A stretch of DNA of 64,000 nucleotides, taken from positions 622,501 to 686,500 of the forward strand of contig NC_089456.1 of the NCBI RefSeq assembly GCF_026210795.1, given 5' to 3'. Shown piece by piece: positions 25,634 through 56,867 of the stretch. Source of the stretch: Rhizophagus irregularis (Eukaryota; Glomeromycota; Glomeromycetes; Glomerales; Glomeraceae). The translations under genes were made by a program, and so were the position numbers. Every line of letters begins with the position of its first letter. Position 1 is the first letter of the stretch. Below the pieces are notes generated by a model that did not search any database, was not told the DNA's origin, and was given only the letters and a program-made list of their open reading frames with translations.

Positions 25634-27467
25634 ATGATGAATCTGATCAATAAAAGACCCGGTTTAGCGTTATCAATTTCAAGAATTCGTTGTAATTTTG
25701 GTCGATATAAATCAGAAATTGCTATCAATTCTAAAGAAATTGAGCAAACACCAAATAACTTACCTTTAGCAGGATATCGTGTTGTCGACCTAACACGTAT
25801 TTTGGGTAAATATTATTATACATTGTACGGAATTTTTAATTTATATGTTAACTTTTTATTATTAAATGCTTCATTAGCTGGTCCTTATTGTACAATGTTG
25901 TTGGGTGATCTTGGGTAAGATATTTTATCTATAATTTCATCTTTTTAATGATTAATATAATTAATCCATTGCTCAGTGCTGAAATAATCAAAGTTGAGAA
26001 CCCCAAACATGGTGACGATTCGCGCACATGGGGTCCTCCATGGGCATATAATAAAGATCTTAATGATAAATCCAGCCCTGAAAGTGCATATTTTCTTGCC
26101 GTTAATAGAAATAAGAAATCTATCACAGTAAATTTTAAAACACAGTTAGGTGCTCAAATAATAAAGGATTTAATAAAAAAAAGTGATATATTAGTAGAAA
26201 ATTACATTCCAGGTAAATTAGATAAATTGGGACTAGGTTATGAAGAATTAAATAAAATTAATCCGAAGTTGATCTATGCTTCGATTACTGGTAAGTTTTA
26301 AAACTTAAATAACTCGCTATGTGACCATTATGTATAATAGGTATAAATTAAAATTGCCATCCTATCTTTTTTTTTAAAAAAAAAATTGTGAAAGGGTATG
26401 GTCAAACAGGCCCCTATGCAAAACGTGCTGGATACGATGTGATTGTTGAAGTATGTATTATTTATTTTTATGTTATTACGATATAAATTTAGTTATTAAT
26501 TTTTGAGGCTAGGCTGAAGCTGGCCTTATGCATATTACTGGTGAAGAAGGTGGCGAACCAGTTAAAGTTGGAGTAGCCATTACGGGTATAAAATAATCCT
26601 CTTAATAACTTAATATGAATATGATTATAAATTAATTTCTATATATTATAGATTTAACAACTGGTATGGAAATTGCAGTATCGAGGTCTTGATATATTAT
26701 TTTACTGAATTGTATATAAAATATAGGACTTTACACGCACGGTGCTATTATGGCGGCACTTATATCAAGAATGCGAACAAATCAAGGACAAAGAATTGAT
26801 TGTTCGTTAATTGAATGTCAAGTTGCTTCGTTAGCAAATATTGGCAGCAATTATCTTATTGCTAATCAAGAAGCAAGTCGGATGGGAACTTCACATATTT
26901 CCATTGTTCCATATCAAAGATTTAAAACAAAAGATAGTTTTATTATAATTGGAGCGGGAAATGATGGACAATTCAAAATTTTATGCAATGCCATTGAAGA
27001 AAGAACTTTATTACAAGATGAAAGATTTAAAACAAATTCAAATCGCGTCAAAAATAGAAAAGAATTGATTGATTTATTACAAAAAAAATTCATTGAAAAA
27101 GATACTGAATATTGGTTATCTGTTTTTTCTGATAAAGGTATTCCATTCGCTCCAATCAATAATATTAAAAAAACCTTTGAGCATCCTCAAGTTATTGCCC
27201 GTGGAATGATTCAAGAAGTTGAACATCCAAAATCTGGAAAGATTAAATTGACAGGTTAGAATTTCCTATATAAATATTGTGTAATTTAGAAAGTTCTTCT
27301 TATGCCTTTATATTATAGGAATACCTGTTAAATATAGCAAAGAAGATCCAAGAATAAGATTACCGCCTCCAACTCTTGGGCAACATACACATGAAGTTCT
27401 GAGTAATATTTTAGGTTATTCTGAGGATAAAATCAAAACTTTGATAGAAGGGCACATTATTAATTAA
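25634..27467 (+). CDS. SUGCT: CaiB/BaiF family CoA-transferase, SUGCT-like
   Basis: About nine exons. An N-terminal basic stretch (LALSISRIRCNFGRYKS) suggests mitochondrial import. The family core follows: LPLAGYRVVDLTRILAGPYC, LLGDLGAEIIKVENPKHGDD (catalytic-type Asp region), SRTWGPPWAY, LAVNRNKKSITVNFK, DILVENYIPGKLDKLGLGYE, YGQTGPYAKRAGYDVIVE, GLYTHGAIMAALISRM, SIVPYQRFKTKDSFIIIGAG and the C-terminal LPPPTLGQHTHEVL. The order and phrases (NYIPGKL, GSIVPYQ-like) fit human SUGCT, which moves CoA from succinyl-CoA to glutarate, so a role in lysine/glutarate catabolism is likely; other family members use formate or oxalate. A 12-nt exon (26652-26663) encodes part of TDLTTG. Confidence 0.9.
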
Positions 27468-36571: not shown

Positions 36572-38250
<1,679 letters not shown>

Positions 38251-39542: not shown

Positions 39543-41613
39543 ATGGCAACTTCAGTATATGAAGTTGTGGTAGGTGTAGATTTTGGTACGTGTTCGAGTA
39601 CGTTTGCGTACTCTCACAAATCGAATAGCTTATCAGATATAGTTACAAATGATATATGGCCACAACAAGGACAACGTGGCGTATTTAAAACCAATACTAT
39701 TTTATTTTATAACTCACAAACTTGGAATGTTGTTGGTTGGGGCTCAAGTGCAATAACGCGTCAAGAGAAAAAGAAAAAGAAAAAAACAGATAATAATGGT
39801 CTACCCACTGGTGAACCTCCTACACTTTCAGTATCTTTGTTTAAATTATTCCTTGGAAATGCAAGAGAACAAGATAAACCTATTTTACCTCAGGGCCTAA
39901 GTTATAGACAATGTGTAATTGATTATCTAGCAGAAATGACCAAAGTATGTAACTGTTGATTGACTTCCTCGAATTCCTTCCTTCACGGATGATTAAAATA
40001 ATACTATATTTACTTATATTCAGCTAATTAAAACTACAATAGCAACAAGATGGCCAGGTGAATGTTTTTATTATATAGGCACTTGCTTGTAATAATACAA
40101 TAAGCTAACGTGTTTAATTCTTTATATTAGGAATAAATTTTTATAAGAACGTTTTGATTGTTTTAACGGGTAATTTTATAATTCATTATTTAAAAAAAAA
40201 ATTCTGTTCTAATTCCAAAATTGTAATTTATTGATTAGTTCCGGCAGATTTTTCGGAAAGAGCAAAGGCAATCATGCGTGATTGTGCATTTAAAGCCGGA
40301 TTATTACAGTTTGCAGATTCTCCAAATTTGGAATTTACTACTGAACGTAAGTATTTTTTTTAAATGAAAAAATAAGAGTTCTTGATTGTTATTACTAATT
40401 TATATATATAATTAGCCGAGGCTGCTGCTATACATTGCATTACCTCACTTAGACAATTAGGATTAAAATCTGGCGGTAAATATCACTTTTCAAATAATTA
40501 CGATTTAATTAATTAATTATACTAACTACAAGATTGATTATTTATAATATTATAGCTAATTTTATGATAGTGGATTGTGGAGGTGGAGCAGTCGACTTAA
40601 CGATGAGAAAATTGACAAGCAATAATCAGATTAGTGAAATAACCGAGAGGACAGGAGATTATTGTGGAAGTACTTTTGTAAATAAAGAGTTCTTAAATTT
40701 TCTTTATCAAAAATATAATTTATATCAATCAATACAACAACTTTATTATAATCATAATGATCAATTTCAATATTTAATAGAAGAATTTTGTAACAAAGTA
40801 AAATTACCGTTTACAGGAGATCAATCAGATTTTCAAAATATTTGTATAGATTTAGAAGATACTTGTCCAGATTTGATGTATTATGTTAATGATGAAATTA
40901 CAAGGCAGAGGATGGAACAAGAAGAATGGATAATTGAATTAGATTTCTTAAGTGTTATAAATATGTTTGATCCAGTTATACAAAGAATTAATTGGTTAAT
41001 CGGAAATCAATTAAATTCTTTTGGAAAAAAATGTTCTGCAATTTTTCTTGTTGGAGGTTTTAGTGAATCCATTTATCTAGTGAGACAAGTTAAACAAACG
41101 TTTAGTAAATATGTTCCTATAATCGAAGTACCATCTCAGCCTATAACTGCTGTAGTTAGAGGTGCTGTACAATATGGCTTAAATATGAGAACCATACAAA
41201 CGAGGGTCTTACGTTACACTTATGGCGTACAGGTTTTAAAGAAGTGGAAAAAAGGAGACGATCCTAGAAGAAAAACTCATAACGGGTTAAAGTTTTGTTT
41301 TCATGAATTGGCAAAAAGAGGAACTGAAGTCAAAGTAAATCAAACTTTTGGTTATGTGGCTAAACCTTCTAGTTTAAATCAGATTGATATGACTTTTAAT
41401 ATTTATGCTACAACAAATTTTGATGCTAAATATTGTGATGATCCTAATACAAAGCATTTGGGTACACTTAAAATAGATTTACCTGATATTCAACTTGGAA
41501 GTAAGAGATTAGTAGAATTCTATCTTACCTTTGGCACAATGGAAATTAAAGCAACCGCAAAGAATAAGAATTCTGGTTTGGTTTATCAAACAACGCTTAA
41601 TTTAGACTTCTAA
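39543..41613 (+). CDS. HSPA12-type Hsp70-family ATPase
   Basis: About six exons, the last one long (from about 40557). Nucleotide-binding motifs: YEVVVGVDFGTCSSTFAYSH (phosphate 1), FMIVDCGGGAVDLTMRKL (phosphate 2), AIFLVGGFSESIYLVRQVKQ (adenosine). Between them, VLIVLTVPADFSERAKAIMR and PEAAAIHCITSLRQLGLKSG match the HSPA12A/B-like branch. The C-terminus lacks an obvious canonical substrate lid and ends TTLNLDF. The branch is greatly expanded in Glomeromycotina, where most members have no known client. A Lys run (KKKKKKT) sits at about residues 77-83. Exons around the 40100-40560 introns are short (36-100 nt) and all join in frame. Confidence 0.9.
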
Positions 41614-43991: not shown

Positions 43992-44193
43992 CTAATGATC
44001 AATATGTAAAAATTTACAATCATCGCCCATATTACACTTTCCTCGGGTATAATACCAACATTCCGAACCTCTACCCCTGTTTGGCCTAATCACACCATCA
44101 CCACCTCTATTTGGAGGTTGAAAGTTCTGTTGATTAGATGAAGGTTGAGGTTGATACCGCTGAGGAACAACATTTGAAGTTTGGTGATTATGT

Positions 44194-44243
<50 letters not shown>

Positions 44244-46811
44244 TTGCTGCTGTTGCTGCTGTTGCTGATGTTGCTGGTGTTGTTGGTGTTGTTGTTGCTG
44301 GATTTGCTGTTGCTGGATTTGCTGTTGCTGGATTTGCTGTTGCTGTTGCTGGTGCTGCTGTTGCTGGTGATGTTGCTGGTAATGCATCATATTTCCCTGA
44401 TTGAAACCCCATTGTGCGAGCGGCATTGGTGGTGGTGCAACTTGAGGTTGTGGTGGTGGTGCAGAGAAAGGTTGACCCGGTGGTATCATCATCCCCCTTG
44501 GTGGCATGTTTTGTACCATCTTTGGGGGTTCCGGAGGGAAAATATTTAAATTTTTATTTTGCATCGTTTCCCATTTTGGATAGACTTGATAAAGTACTCG
44601 CAATACTTCTTCATTATAGCCATTAAAGTCTAATAAATCAATATCTTTATCAACTTCATGTTTAAAATTTTCTTTATTTTCTTCAAGAAATAATTCTTTG
44701 GGAGATAATGACTGATTATATTTATTTATTTGATAATTATGAGGAGGTTCTGCAGGAGTAAAGGGAACTTGATCTGATGTAATATAAATTGTTTCAAGTA
44801 TCTGCCTTTCTCTTTCCTCTTGAATTCTCGCTTCCTCACTTTCAGCAGATTTTCGTTTTTTTATTTTTGGTCTAGAAGATAGATCAATTGTAAGTGGTAT
44901 ATGCCACTGAATAACTGGTGCTTTACGAACTCGTTTGAAAGCTGCACGACCTTCATTCCTATCAAGATCTCGAGCATTTCCGTAGTGATGTGGAGTATCG
45001 GCCGTAGTCGGCTCTTCATCAGAATCTTCAGGATCTATTACTTCAAATAATTTTACTTTTTCAAGTAGGCCATCAGGAGCAAATGTAACCCGTTTCCTTT
45101 TTTTAGAAGGAATAGATGATATTTCGGGCTCTTTATGTTTTTGAATAGATGAGCTATCGTCAGAAGTTTCTGCCTGCAGATTATGTGTAACCTGTTTTTC
45201 AATTTTTTGCTTTGAAGTCGGTATTAATTTCGATGGATCTTTTTGAGGTGGCCTAGGAATTTGTCTTTTGGACGCAGACGCAGCTAAATTACTAAGCAAT
45301 TGAGTAAAGATACTAGGTTTTTCGTTCTTTTCATTTTCATTCTGTGCATCAGCGGCTTTTTTCCTTTTTTGGTCGGCAGGTTTAGGTCTAACTAATTCTC
45401 TTCCGCTAGACGAAGTTTGGGTAGATTGAATTGTCGAAGGTTTGGCCAGATCCGATTTTGAATTAATTTTTTGATTGCTTTTTTCCACTTTTTCTAACCT
45501 TTTCTTTTCTTCGAGTGCTTTTTGTTCTTTTAATTCCTTTTGTTCTTTTAATTCTTTTAATTCTTTTTGTTCTTTTTGTTCTTTTAATTGTTGTTCTTCC
45601 AATTGTTTCTTCTCTTCGACCCATTTATCAAGGAGTTTTCCAGCTAACTTTGCAACCCCATCAATAGTAGATTCTTTTACGTTTCTATTATAGATGACCG
45701 TTCCAAGACCACTAGAACGAGATAAAGTGTAATCGATAGGTAGCAGGCTTACAATTTCGAGTAGCTCTTTTAAATTATTATTTTCATCAGTTTTTGTCGC
45801 TTCCTCCTTAATCCAATTTCTCAGTATGTAACTAACGCGTTCGCGTACAAGCGATTTCAAAATTTCCGGATGATGAGTTTGTTTTATAATATGTAAAATA
45901 ACGCCACGCGTATTTGGTGAAGTGTCTTTAACCTTTTTAAGAAAATCTTTGACAACATCAGTAGAAATTAAACCCAAATCATGATTTAGGTATGTCATTA
46001 TACTTGCAATAAGCTCTCTCGATTCATTGTTTTCAGAATTTTGATTAGAGTTTGTTTTTCGTGGTTCATCAAGTTTTACACTAGCTATAATATTGTTGTC
46101 ATAATTAATAGTACTTGGAAAATGATTAATACTTGTATTGTTATTAGCGAAATTGTTACTCATATTATTATTTATACTTGTACTATTACTAGAGAAATTA
46201 TTACTTGTCATTGTACTATTTGTGTTACTACTAGCGAAATTATTACTATTAACTATATTATTATTACCGTTACTCATATATTCAGGAGATATAAAATTAT
46301 TATAATATTGTAGTTCAGTTGGTATTGAGCCAGGAAGTAAATTGGCAGAAGTATTGTACATATTTTCTTGAGTTTGTTGAGGTGGATCTGATATATACAC
46401 GTAAACTTCATGATCTGGAATTGAGGACATTACTGGTCCTCCATCAAAAGGAGAAAAATATGGTGAGGTAGTTTCAGTACTATGTTCGATATTACTTTCG
46501 GCGGCAACGTTAATAAAAGGAGCTGTTGTAGTTGTGGTAGGTGTGGTAGTTGTGACAGTTGTGGTAGGTAAATTAGTGGCACCTTGTTCTCTTTGCAATT
46601 TCATTTCTTTCTTTCTTCTTCGTTGAAACCATTCGTTCACCTGGGATTCGGTAGCACCTATAGCGCCTGCAGCTTTAACTTTTTGTGATTTATCAGGATA
46701 TTTTGCCTGTTGATATATGCCCTCCAGCAACCCCAAGTGCTCTTCCGTAAAATGAAATCGTGGTCTTGGTTGTCGTTGTTGAGATACCTGCGCTACTCTT
46801 TGATCATCCAT
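43992..46811 (-). CDS. Homeodomain + TFIIS-N + RVxF + CCCH protein (LUMINIDEPENDENS/PNUTS-like)
   Basis: One uninterrupted frame of 939 residues. A homeodomain lies at ~16-75 (RPRFHFTEEHLGLLEGIYQQ through VNEWFQRRRKKEMKLQRE); the recognition helix has WFQRRR where WFQNRR is usual. An Asn/Ser/Thr-rich segment follows, then a TFIIS N-terminal (LW) domain at ~265-400 (TRGVILHIIKQTHHPEILKS, LLPIDYTLSRSSGLGTVIYN, VAKLAGKLLDKWVEEKK). A charged coil (KEQKELKELKEQKELKEQK) leads to KKRKRVTFAPDGLLEKVKLF at ~572, an RVxF PP1-docking motif in the position PNUTS uses. A Pro/Gln tract with 26 or so uninterrupted Gln (~807-870) precedes a terminal CCCH finger (CWYYTRGKCNMGDDCKFLHI). TFIIS-N, RVxF and CCCH are the PNUTS order; homeodomain plus TFIIS-N is the plant LD order. 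A role in the phosphatase module of the cleavage/termination machinery is inferred. Confidence 0.88.
44196..44380. repeat. CAG/CAA triplet tract
   Basis: On the coding (minus) strand, long runs of CAG and CAA with interspersed CAT and ATC encode poly-Gln with His and Ile interruptions, including repeated IQQQQIQQQQIQQQQ. Mixed CAG/CAA use argues for selection on the Gln tract. Long open frames on the opposite strand here are by-products. Confidence 0.85.
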
Positions 46812-47259
46812 TATACTTTTTTTTTCTTTTACGAGAGACGAAACTAATTTTTATTACTTTTGATCAAAAAATTCAAATTACCAGTTTATTTATCATATGA
46901 TTGAAAAATTGCACGTGTATGTTAGTGTTGATCGTTAACCTTGAATTCCGTGGAATTTTGGATTTAATATCGAGATATATGCCTTCTAAATACAATTACG
47001 CAATACAATTGAAAGCAAAAATTACTGTATCACTTAAATGTAATACAAAATATGCTAGTCAAAAGATAGTAAAACTAGAATAAAGTGGATCAAAAATTGG
47101 ATCAATATAGACTAAAAATAAACTCGTTATCATCTGATATCACTAATGTATTAATTATTAATTTCACTTTGTTTGTTATGAAAACGCGCGGAAACTTTAG
47201 TTATAATTGCGTTTACATTTTTTTCCTTTTTCTCTCGTTTGTATGATAAATTTAAAATA
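46812..47259. promoter_or_regulatory. Divergent upstream region, PNUTS-like / CBS gene
   Basis: Separates two divergent start codons. A TTTTTTTCCTTTTTCTCTCG pyrimidine tract sits just before the CBS gene. A 60-codon frame at 46901 has no recognised domain. Confidence 0.35.
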
Positions 47260-48361
47260 ATGTATTCTACACCACAACATATTAGTTTTTTAAAAGGACA
47301 AACCATAGACTCTGTTATTAAGGAAAAACAGAATATTTCGCAACTTATTGAAATTCCTATTACTGCTACTATTGAAGAAGCTTTTGATGTTTTATTGGCG
47401 GAAAATATTTTAAGTGTCCCTGTTTATAGACTTTGGAGAGGTCACAAGCAACCTATTGCTATTGTTAATGTAGTCGATTTAGTTGCTTTTGTTTGTTTAC
47501 AGGTATGACAAAGGTTAAATAAAAATAATAAATTTTTGAAAAAAAAAGTAAAAAAGATTAATTTTTTTTTTTTTCGCTGTTAATAAGCCAATTTTCAATA
47601 ATGGAAATGGTTGCGAATCATCAAATTTTAATAGTAAATCAATTTTTTTACAAAATTCCATTGGTGAATTAATCGGGTTATCAGCCGAAAGTACACATCT
47701 TACAATATGTCATCCAGATGATTTATTAATTGATACATTGGAATTATTTACTCGAAAACAAGTTCATAGAGTTTTAGTAACTGAACGAAGACCAGTTGAA
47801 GATCAAGACGGAGAAGAAGTTATTAACGAAGATGAAGTTAAACCTTGTTTTGTATCACAAACTGATATTGTAAGATTTTTATTCCAACATAATCATCAAT
47901 TAGGTAAAATTTTGGATACTTCTGCATCCGAAGTATCTAATAGAACGATTCGTTTAATTGGAAGAAATAATTTATTGGGACAACCCTCTTCTATTACAAT
48001 TCATGATCAAGCTTTAACAGCCTTTAAAAAAATTCATCAAGATGGAGTTAGTGCTGTTGCCGTTGTTGGAGATGATGGAACATTAGTCGGAGAAGTTAGC
48101 GCTGCAGACTTAAGAGGGTTGAATAGAGAAAGGTTATCTGATTTAACAAAACCCGTAATTATGTTTTTAAAGAGTTCTAAAGGAGATTTAACCAAACCTT
48201 TAACTTGTCATGGTAAATTTACCCTCAGTCAAGTTATGGCAGGAATTATCCGCAGCAAAGCTCATAGAGTTTGGGTTGTTGATGAAGATGATGTCCCTAT
48301 TGGTGTTATTACTCTTAGTGATATTCTTTCGATGTTTTTACCTGATGTTAATGGACAATAA
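47260..48361 (+). CDS. Four-CBS (tandem Bateman) domain protein
   Basis: Two exons (to 47502; from 47588) splice in phase 0. Start taken at Met 47260 (MYSTPQHISFLKGQTIDSVI); an upstream in-frame Met at 47239 would add seven residues. Four CBS modules are seen: IPITATIEEAFDVLLAENIL with SVPVYR; ICHPDDLLIDTLELFTRKQV with HRVLVTERR; SSITIHDQALTAFKKIHQDG with VSAVAVVGDDGTLVGEVSAA; and TCHGKFTLSQVMAGIIRSKA with HRVWVVDEDDVPIGVITLSD. Such twin Bateman units bind adenine nucleotides. The architecture is that of AMPK-gamma/Snf4 or Sds23-like regulators, but it lacks features that would let me pick one, so I leave it unnamed. About 338 residues. Confidence 0.85.
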
Positions 48362-54464: not shown

Positions 54465-56867
54465 ATGGGTAGCGTTCCAAAAGAATCAACATTACGAGAT
54501 CAACAGATCGGTAATTGTTATTTATTTTAATTACTATTATTTTTTTTTACCTTGCATTCAAAAAAAAAAAAATTTAATGGTAAATTTAATAGAGTCGATT
54601 GTGACAATGCTTAACCTTAATAATAAGCAAGAAGTTATACCAGCTTCATCAGAAAATTCGTTAGTTCCTTCGGCAAACAATGAACCCGTATGGAAGGTTT
54701 TGATATTTGACGATTTTGGTCGAGATATCATTTCTTCCGTCCTTAAAGTTAACGATTTACGCGAAAATGGTGTAACGGTTCATATGTACGTAAACTATTC
54801 TGAAAATTTTTTGATTATGCGGTTAACCCGTAAATTAACGTATTTTTAAATATGACTCAGTTTTTTCAATGGTTTGATGATTTATATAGGTTGTTAAGAA
54901 GTGAAAGACAACCTATTTCTGATGTTCCGGCAATTTATTTTGTTGAGCCCACAACGGAAAATGTACAAAGGATTAGCGAGGTTAAATAATTTCTTTATTT
55001 TTATTATATAATTATGATTTTTAAATTTTAAATAAAATTGTTGAAATTTAGGATTTGGCCAAAAATCTTTACGAATCATATTATATTAATTTTCTGACAG
55101 CTATTTCACGACCTTTACTCGAAGAATTGGCAGCTGCTACAATACAAAATAACACATCAAATTCAATATCACAAGTCTATGATCAATACTTGAATTTTAT
55201 TGTTTCCGAACCGAATCTTTTTTCACTCAATCAGCCCAATATTTATTATTTATTAAATGATCCAACCACTGCAGAAACAGCTATTGAGCGAGCAATTGAC
55301 CGCACGGTCAGTTCTCTATTCTCCGTATTAGTCACAATGGGAGTTATACCAATCATCCGTTGCCCAAGAGGAAATGCAGCTGAAATGATTGCACAAAAGC
55401 TTGATAATCGATTACGAGATCATGCATTAAATTCGCGGAACAATCTGTTTTTGGAGAACTCCAAGTCTTTAAATTTTCAGAGACCTGTTTTGATCATCCT
55501 TGATAGAAATATTGATCTTGTACCAATGTTGAGCCATTCATGGACTTATCAAGCGTTGATTCATGATGTCTTGGATATGCATTTGAATAGAATTACTATT
55601 GAAACAGAAGAAATAGGACTAATATCAAAGAGAAGTTATGATTTAGACAACAAAGATTTCTTTTGGGCAAAAAATGCATCAAATCCATTCCCGCAAGTAG
55701 CCGAAGATATTGATGTGGAACTTAATCGTTATAAAAGTGATGCTGCGGAAATTACTAAACTTAGCGGAGTAAACTCATTAGATGACATGGATCAAGTTGA
55801 TTTTTCTCATAATACTCAGCATTTGAAATCAGCTATTACAGCATTACCAGAGCTTACTGCAAGAAAACAAACACTGGATATGCACATGAATATTGCAACA
55901 TCTTTATTAAAAGGGATCAAAGAACGTCAACTTGATACATTCTTCCAAATGGAGGAATCTATAACTAGACAAAATAAATCAGCTATATTAGAAGCAATCA
56001 GGGACCCAGAAAAAAAACCAGAAGATAAATTAAGGTTTTTCATAATCTATTATTTATCCGCTGAAGAAGTTCTTAAAGATATGGCTGAATATGAAGATGC
56101 ATTACGCTCTGCCGGTTGTGATTTGGGTGCATTGAATTATGTTAAAAAGTTGTCATATTTTTTATTTATCGAAAACTGTTTAATTAATGTCAGAAAATTT
56201 AAATTAACCTTCATGTATTTACTATTATAGAGTACGTGAAATCACTAGGATGACTATGATGACAACTATGGCTCCTCAAAGCTCTGGTTTTGCTCAATCT
56301 AGTCAACTTTTTCAAGGATTTAGTTCTATAGGAAATAAGGTAATAATTATCTGCTTGAATTTCCAAGAAATGAAACAAATCTTAACTAATATTTATTTAC
56401 AGCTGAAAGAAGGTGGTCTTGGAGGTGGCTTCGAGAATTTAATATCAGGTGTCAAAAATTTGTTACCTACACGCAAAGATTTAACCCTTACAAAAATTGT
56501 AGAATCTATTATGGAGCCAACTGCAAGTGGAACAAATGAAACAGAAGATTATTTGTATTTTGACCCAAAAATGGCAAGAAGCTCTAGTACAAATAAACAA
56601 AGTAAGAGTAAAATTTCATTTCAAGAAGGAATTGTATTTGTAGTTGGTGGCGGAAATTACATTGAATATCAAAATTTACAGGAATATGCTCAGGTAATTT
56701 ATTGAGAAATGCTTTATCTTTAATTTTTTGATTTTATTGATTTTTTTTTTATATATATATATTTTCTTCTGCAGCGTCAAGCTATTAAGAAAAGAATTAT
56801 TTATGGTTCTACAAATATTTTGAATCCACATGCATTTTTACAAGAACTTGCAAATCTTGGACTATAA
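54465..56867 (+). CDS. SLY1: SLY1, Sec1/Munc18-family protein
   Basis: About seven exons; start [20 protein letters not shown]. Conserved Sly1 phrases: [180 protein letters not shown] and, near the end, [20 protein letters not shown]. Total about 620-640 residues, as in the family. Sly1 clasps Sed5/syntaxin-5 SNARE complexes for ER-Golgi fusion. The first intron is at codon 15-16, and the reading [16 protein letters not shown] parallels yeast LRDMQISAILKMLFLN, supporting that junction. Confidence 0.95.

Follow-up and report, generated by a model that had tools for sequence, protein, structure and literature searches.

A fungal protein with a homeodomain and PNUTS-type domains as the probable regulatory subunit of the 3′-end processing phosphatase module

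Introduction

The stretch of Rhizophagus irregularis DNA analysed here (the window, 64,000 nucleotides) contains a long open frame whose domains recall both the animal phosphatase scaffold PNUTS and the plant protein LUMINIDEPENDENS (LD), and the question that it raises is to which machinery the encoded protein belongs and how it came by its homeodomain. A preliminary description, made from the sequence of the window, had placed in this one frame a homeodomain, a TFIIS N-terminal (TFIIS-N) domain, an RVTF motif with an acidic stretch, a Gln tract and a CCCH finger; reading of the open frame, together with Pfam and phmmer searches, confirms that set and its order, running from the homeodomain through TFIIS-N, the RVTF motif with its acidic tail and the Gln tract to a C-terminal finger. 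On the sequence comparisons reported below, the product of the gene is very probably a regulatory subunit of the PNUTS/Ppn1/LD type, serving the phosphatase module in the 3′-end processing (CPF/CPSF) machinery of this fungus. What appears to be new is a single fungal protein holding both the PNUTS and the LD architectures, the family itself being already known: LD was equated with PNUTS/Ref2 in 2024 on the basis of partners, shared domain layout, predicted complexes and low sequence similarity (PMC7616277; papers are cited throughout for the excerpts drawn on here). The main text of that paper contains none of the terms homeodomain, fungi and fungal, and a literature search covering titles and the beginnings of abstracts among the matches listed showed no description of a fungal homeodomain PNUTS/LD protein.

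Results and discussion

The frame carries a coding-like base composition as a whole, linker included, with GC contents of 0.504, 0.340 and 0.247 at the three codon positions, compared with 0.233 in the flanks taken. The genome (146.7 Mb; 146,748,485 bases in 32 contigs) holds one match to the whole 939-residue protein, and searches of viral and prokaryotic collections gave no relatives of it, as expected for a fungal gene. Among 2-kb stretches of the window, positions 44001–46000 are one of the two with the lowest AT content. The features of the frame are collected in Table 1.

Table 1. Features of the 939-residue protein and their positions in the window.
Feature	Position	Strand	Basis
Complete open frame, ATG to stop, 939 aa	43992..46811	-	ORF reading; genome search; codon-position GC
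Homeodomain, aa 16-69	46605..46766	-	PF00046; predicted fold; Foldseek and VIA-align
Arg64 at the usual Asn51 place	46620-46622	-	Ungapped alignment with PITX2
PNUTS-type TFIIS-N domain, aa 263-398	45618..46025	-	phmmer (6zv2); reverse genome search
N-terminal half of TFIIS-N, aa 263-325, corresponding to PNUTS helices 1-4	45837..46025	-	Alignment and shuffles; cut between halves chosen by the authors
PP1-docking stretch, aa 570-596 (basic patch, RVTF, Leu583, VK586-587, Phe589, Glu595)	45024..45104	-	Sequence comparison
Candidate WDR82/Swd2-binding stretch, aa 630-705 (KAPVIQWHIPL ... SLSPK)	44697..44924	-	Likeness to provisional PNUTS and LD sequences
Gln-rich tract, aa 816-873	44193..44366	-	Sequence reading
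Short RGG/RGRG stretch, aa 902-915	44067..44108	-	Read from translation
CCCH finger, aa 918-936	44004..44060	-	PF00642

The neighbouring gene at 47239–48361 (+) is divergent from this one; it includes a frame with CBS domains (Pfam; 47738–48361) and, by eye, resembles an AMPK-gamma-type protein. Isocitrate lyase exons (PF00463; 50148–51617, +) lie in the other least AT-rich 2-kb stretch. Elsewhere in the window are exons of ordinary cellular genes, for enolase (36881–37462, –), a Sec1-family protein (55055–56230, +) and a family III CoA-transferase (26750–27259, +), as well as an open frame at 40534–41613 (+) that has no Pfam match at an E-value of 0.001 and that resembles, by eye, an Hsp70-type ATPase; a frame at 39543–39959 possibly matches it.

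The homeodomain

The N-terminal domain is a homeodomain by both profile and fold. When aa 1–80 were scanned alone, PF00046 gave 43.7 bits (cut-off 22.9), and a six-frame search of the genome gave 43.4 bits at this gene, although the profile was not listed in the scan of the whole 939-residue protein. The predicted model has three helices over aa 21–70 (pLDDT 86–92), and homeodomain structures match it in Foldseek and VIA-align comparisons. Asn51 is the usual contact of the homeodomain recognition helix. Here, a feature absent from the preliminary description, position 51 is Arg (Arg64) rather than the Asn of a classical DNA-binding homeodomain, and any contact made by the domain is therefore probably not of the classical sequence-specific kind. 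The PF00046 search of the genome found 11 homeodomain matches, nine of them above the cut-off and one (L011) being this gene; all seven of the others that cover the site (L005, L006, L007, L008, L009, L010 and L013) have Asn there, L012, L014 and L015 having been dropped because they stop short of it. One of these shortened pieces, L014 (G000:C32:1401784–1401873), lies in a 41-codon frame below the Pfam cut-off and is closely similar to L005 and L006; it may be a disrupted copy or a single exon.

The plant counterpart was compared by means of a provisional LD sequence, one not drawn from a database record, whose homeodomain passes PF00046 at 25.3 bits. The fungal and provisional LD homeodomains score 58 against each other, a value reached in none of 1000 shuffles, and in the ungapped Pfam register position 51 of the provisional LD sequence is Thr, so that neither protein has Asn. 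Should the provisional letters prove correct, LD and the fungal protein would have in common a homeodomain that is both aberrant and placed alike, ahead of TFIIS-N.

Such a homeodomain could have been inherited or gained. It is a possible, if somewhat doubtful, reading that, with no connection to plant LD, a fusion in this fungal lineage gave a PNUTS orthologue an ordinary homeodomain. No homeodomain is described for animal PNUTS or fission-yeast Ppn1 in the excerpts of PMC12278311, PMC7990198 and PMC4063703 drawn on here, and, among the four of the seven other genome homeodomains used for scoring (L005, L007, L008 and L009), two are closer to the present domain (80 and 70) than is the provisional LD sequence (58), with one equal (58) and one lower (56). 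Against a fusion, the provisional LD homeodomain scores only 21 to 28 with those same four, well below its score with this domain, and the shared position and, in the same provisional letters, the shared absence of Asn51 point the same way. The occurrence of the PNUTS and LD architectures in one protein makes an ancestral homeodomain plausible, and we think inheritance from an ancestor shared with plant LD more likely than gain, though at odds of about even; it is a lead drawn from provisional LD letters and from one fungus.

The TFIIS-N domain

In a phmmer search of the PDB with aa 262–403, the best match was PNUTS (6zv2, PPP1R10; 2.4e-5), followed by three further PNUTS sequences, and the second family with a TFIIS-N domain was IWS1, at 0.14. 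No TFIIS, elongin or Med26 sequence was among the nine PDB rows with E-values up to 10, in a PDB copy that includes TFIIS and IWS1 chains; S. pombe Ppn1 was absent among the matches listed in the PDB searches (in one of them, the best 60 of 142). Conversely, the human PNUTS TFIIS-N domain, when searched in the genome, found this gene at 6.4e-4 and the next place at 7.24. The family profile PF08711 is borderline, giving 15.4, 20.0 and 20.1 bits (20.7 with neighbours) against a cut-off of 20.6, so that two of the three scans leave the domain under the cut-off and the third puts it only just above. The AlphaFold model of this domain is poor (pLDDT 49) and was left unused.

The two halves of the domain differ in their likeness. 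The N-terminal half, aa 263–325, scores 64 against PNUTS, a value reached in none of 2000 shuffles, with 17 of 59 columns identical; the corresponding four helices of PNUTS, which precede the TFIIS-N core, have been described as lacking in all other known proteins with this domain and form the Tox4-binding subdomain in animals (PMC12278311). The core alone scores 48 against PNUTS (reached in three of 2000 shuffles in one run and none of 1000 in another) and 68 against an IWS1 piece (none of 1000 shuffles), although human PNUTS itself scores 67 against the same piece. Over the whole domain the order is reversed, PNUTS scoring 99 and the IWS1 piece 74; as that piece covers the core only, the comparison of N-terminal halves cannot show that IWS1 lacks this half. 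The preliminary description had taken a grouping with IWS1 as telling against a PNUTS-type domain, and the outcome is divided: the whole domain and the reciprocal match favour PNUTS, whereas the core by itself is nearer IWS1. This gene was rejected as the genome's IWS1 orthologue, because contig C17 holds a separate gene with a far stronger IWS1 match (3nfq, 1.4e-29); an exon with TFIIS as its best match sits elsewhere in the genome (weak, 0.025).

Comparison with the LD TFIIS-N domain, again in provisional letters that fall short of the PF08711 cut-off at 13.9 bits, gave a weak score with the fungal domain (44, reached in 11 of 1000 shuffles) and a strong one with that of PNUTS (99, none of 1000).

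The PP1-docking stretch

The RVTF motif occupies aa 574–577 and is followed by an acidic stretch, FEVIDPEDSDEEP, at aa 589–601. An RVxF motif alone is common. When aligned without gaps to the human PNUTS dock, the letters of which were taken from a solved peptide (4moy_B), aa 572–595 are identical at nine of 24 positions, for a score of 38; elsewhere in the protein no placement exceeds 15, and none of 2000 shuffles reached 38, the best being 36. For the part after RVTF, taken by itself, sequences drawn at random from the local residues did as well in 14 of 20000 trials. V575, F577, L583, V586-K587, F589 and E595 correspond to V399, W401, L407, Y410-F411, F413 and E419 of the human protein, but the salt-bridging Glu and the Arg motif are not kept, E405 being replaced by Gly581 and R420 by Asp596. 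These are among the contact positions described between human PNUTS and PP1, and the same source counts VK among the accepted Phi-Phi pairs (PMC10731240). Since the Arg-motif contact is not predicted in Leishmania PNUTS either (PMC10731240), we do not take that motif as defining the family. The spacing of eight from V to L is also that of Ppn1 (V508–L516), to which the basic patch fits as well (PMC7990198, section 12). PNUTS was not recovered in phmmer searches of the PDB made with the dock by itself or with the central region.

These results bear on the view that the protein is a homeodomain transcription regulator with an IWS1/TFIIS-type TFIIS-N domain, in which RVTF is a chance match and there is no PP1 scaffold. 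That view could draw on the IWS1-like core and on the frequency of RVxF motifs, but with IWS1 encoded by its own gene, PNUTS favoured over the whole TFIIS-N domain, its N-terminal half matched and the extended dock unmatched by shuffled sequences, we regard it as improbable. It is more improbable still that a homeodomain gene and an adjoining PNUTS gene have been read as one frame, for, although a long Thr/Asn/Ser-rich linker parts the domains, no stop falls between the homeodomain and TFIIS-N parts across the 939 codons and, as noted above, the composition of the frame is coding-like.

The C-terminal parts

A candidate WDR82/Swd2-binding stretch, aa 630–705, lies C-terminal to the PP1 dock, on the same side as the parts of PNUTS and Ppn1 that bind WDR82/Swd22. 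It scores 91 against the provisional letters of an LD stretch (none of 1000 shuffles reaching this, the best 56) and 61 against those of a PNUTS stretch (reached in one of 1000 shuffles, the best 62), only the 38 residues of the provisional PNUTS stretch that are covered by 4moy being confirmed. The two provisional stretches presumably fall within aa 566–661 of LD and aa 380–530 of PNUTS. Those segments have been modelled with their respective WDR82 proteins (PMC7616277).

The Gln-rich tract contains six runs of at least four Gln, the longest of 25, which is encoded by mixed CAA and CAG codons. The terminal finger has the spacing CX7CX5CX3H, counted by eye, and reached 21.4 bits with PF00642 when scanned as a piece (cut-off 20.5), compared with 16.3 bits in the scan of the whole protein.

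Candidate partner genes

Candidate genes for both expected partners, a WDR82/Swd2-like protein and PP1, are present in the same genome as the 939-residue protein. Four pieces at C8:2664475–2665778 match a provisional human WDR82 query at 40–69% identity (best 2.8e-5), and the gene was chosen as WDR82-like for that reason, although other WD40 genes beat it in single-exon E-value (for example on C2, 27% identity, 1.3e-9); in the six-frame translation, a TAA falls inside one of its pieces. When its exons were joined by hand and searched against the PDB, S. pombe C824.04, which we take to be Swd22, was one of two sequences within 1e-15 (9scd_D, 9.6e-49). For PP1, a provisional query matched two exons at C4:5663378–5663938 at 89% identity, and this gene was taken as PP1; the best-scoring match was a gene on C21 (68%, 3.9e-80).

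A possible mode of action

The preliminary description had cast the protein as the PP1 scaffold in transcription termination. This role is well supported by the reciprocal TFIIS-N match, the PNUTS-type N-terminal half, the register of the dock and the candidate partner genes, with the greater likeness of the TFIIS-N core to IWS1 standing on the other side. In such a scaffold the stretch formed by the basic patch, RVTF, Leu, VK and Phe would wrap PP1, and the stretch just after it would hold a WDR82/Swd22-like protein. The TFIIS-N domain may recognize short motifs in elongation factors, and its first helices perhaps contact a fungal partner, while the RGG-CCCH end could bind RNA and the homeodomain might add a contact with nucleic acid or protein. 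So placed, PP1 would remove phosphates from RNA polymerase II and from elongation factors in the neighbourhood of poly(A) sites, and would promote termination.

A wider reading, which we judge evenly balanced between true and false, is that a PP1 termination scaffold carrying a homeodomain, a TFIIS-N domain, docks for PP1 and WDR82 and a CCCH finger was already present in the common ancestor of plants, fungi and animals, that the homeodomain was lost in animals and in fission yeast and the finger in plants, and that this fungus retains every part. If this is so, the homeodomain would serve transcription termination rather than act as a gene-specific factor of the classical kind.

Comparison with known systems

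Budding-yeast Ref2 resembles the fungal protein in its TFIIS-N domain and in binding Glc7 through an RVxF motif, there non-canonical (SIKF), but no homeodomain is mentioned for it in the excerpts drawn on, and low conservation with PNUTS and LD has been reported (PMC7616277). Fission-yeast Ppn1, of the DPS module of CPF, is closer: it shares the TFIIS-N domain, the basic patch, the VxW motif and Leu at the same spacing, and then a Swd22-binding part (PMC7990198). Unlike the fungal protein, its N-terminal 172 residues are described as disordered, ahead of TFIIS-N, and the excerpts make no mention of a homeodomain (PMC7990198, PMC4063703).

Animal PNUTS (PPP1R10), the scaffold of PTW/PP1, differs in having its TFIIS-N domain at the very start (aa 1–160), with no homeodomain mentioned in the excerpts of PMC12278311, and in the Arg motif of the human protein. 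It has in common with the fungal protein the extra N-terminal helices of TFIIS-N, the RVxF-PhiR-PhiPhi-F dock in the same register and a CCCH finger at the C-terminus; RGG repeats precede the finger in PNUTS, where the fungal protein has a much shorter RGG/RGRG stretch.

Arabidopsis LD, which acts with APRF1 and TOPP4 in a module resembling that of WDR82 and PP1 (PMC7616277), has an N-terminal homeodomain and a TFIIS domain, and binds DNA without sequence specificity (PMC7334503). Further motifs of the LD class go by the names LUMI, LD1, LD2, LD4 and LD5. A CCCH finger is unmentioned for LD in the excerpts of PMC7616277 and PMC7334503, and the fungal protein has one; the LD-type order, with the homeodomain N-terminal to TFIIS-N, is present in both. 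A fungal protein that has an N-terminal homeodomain, like LD, and also PNUTS-specific features would lend independent support to the link between LD and PNUTS/Ref2.
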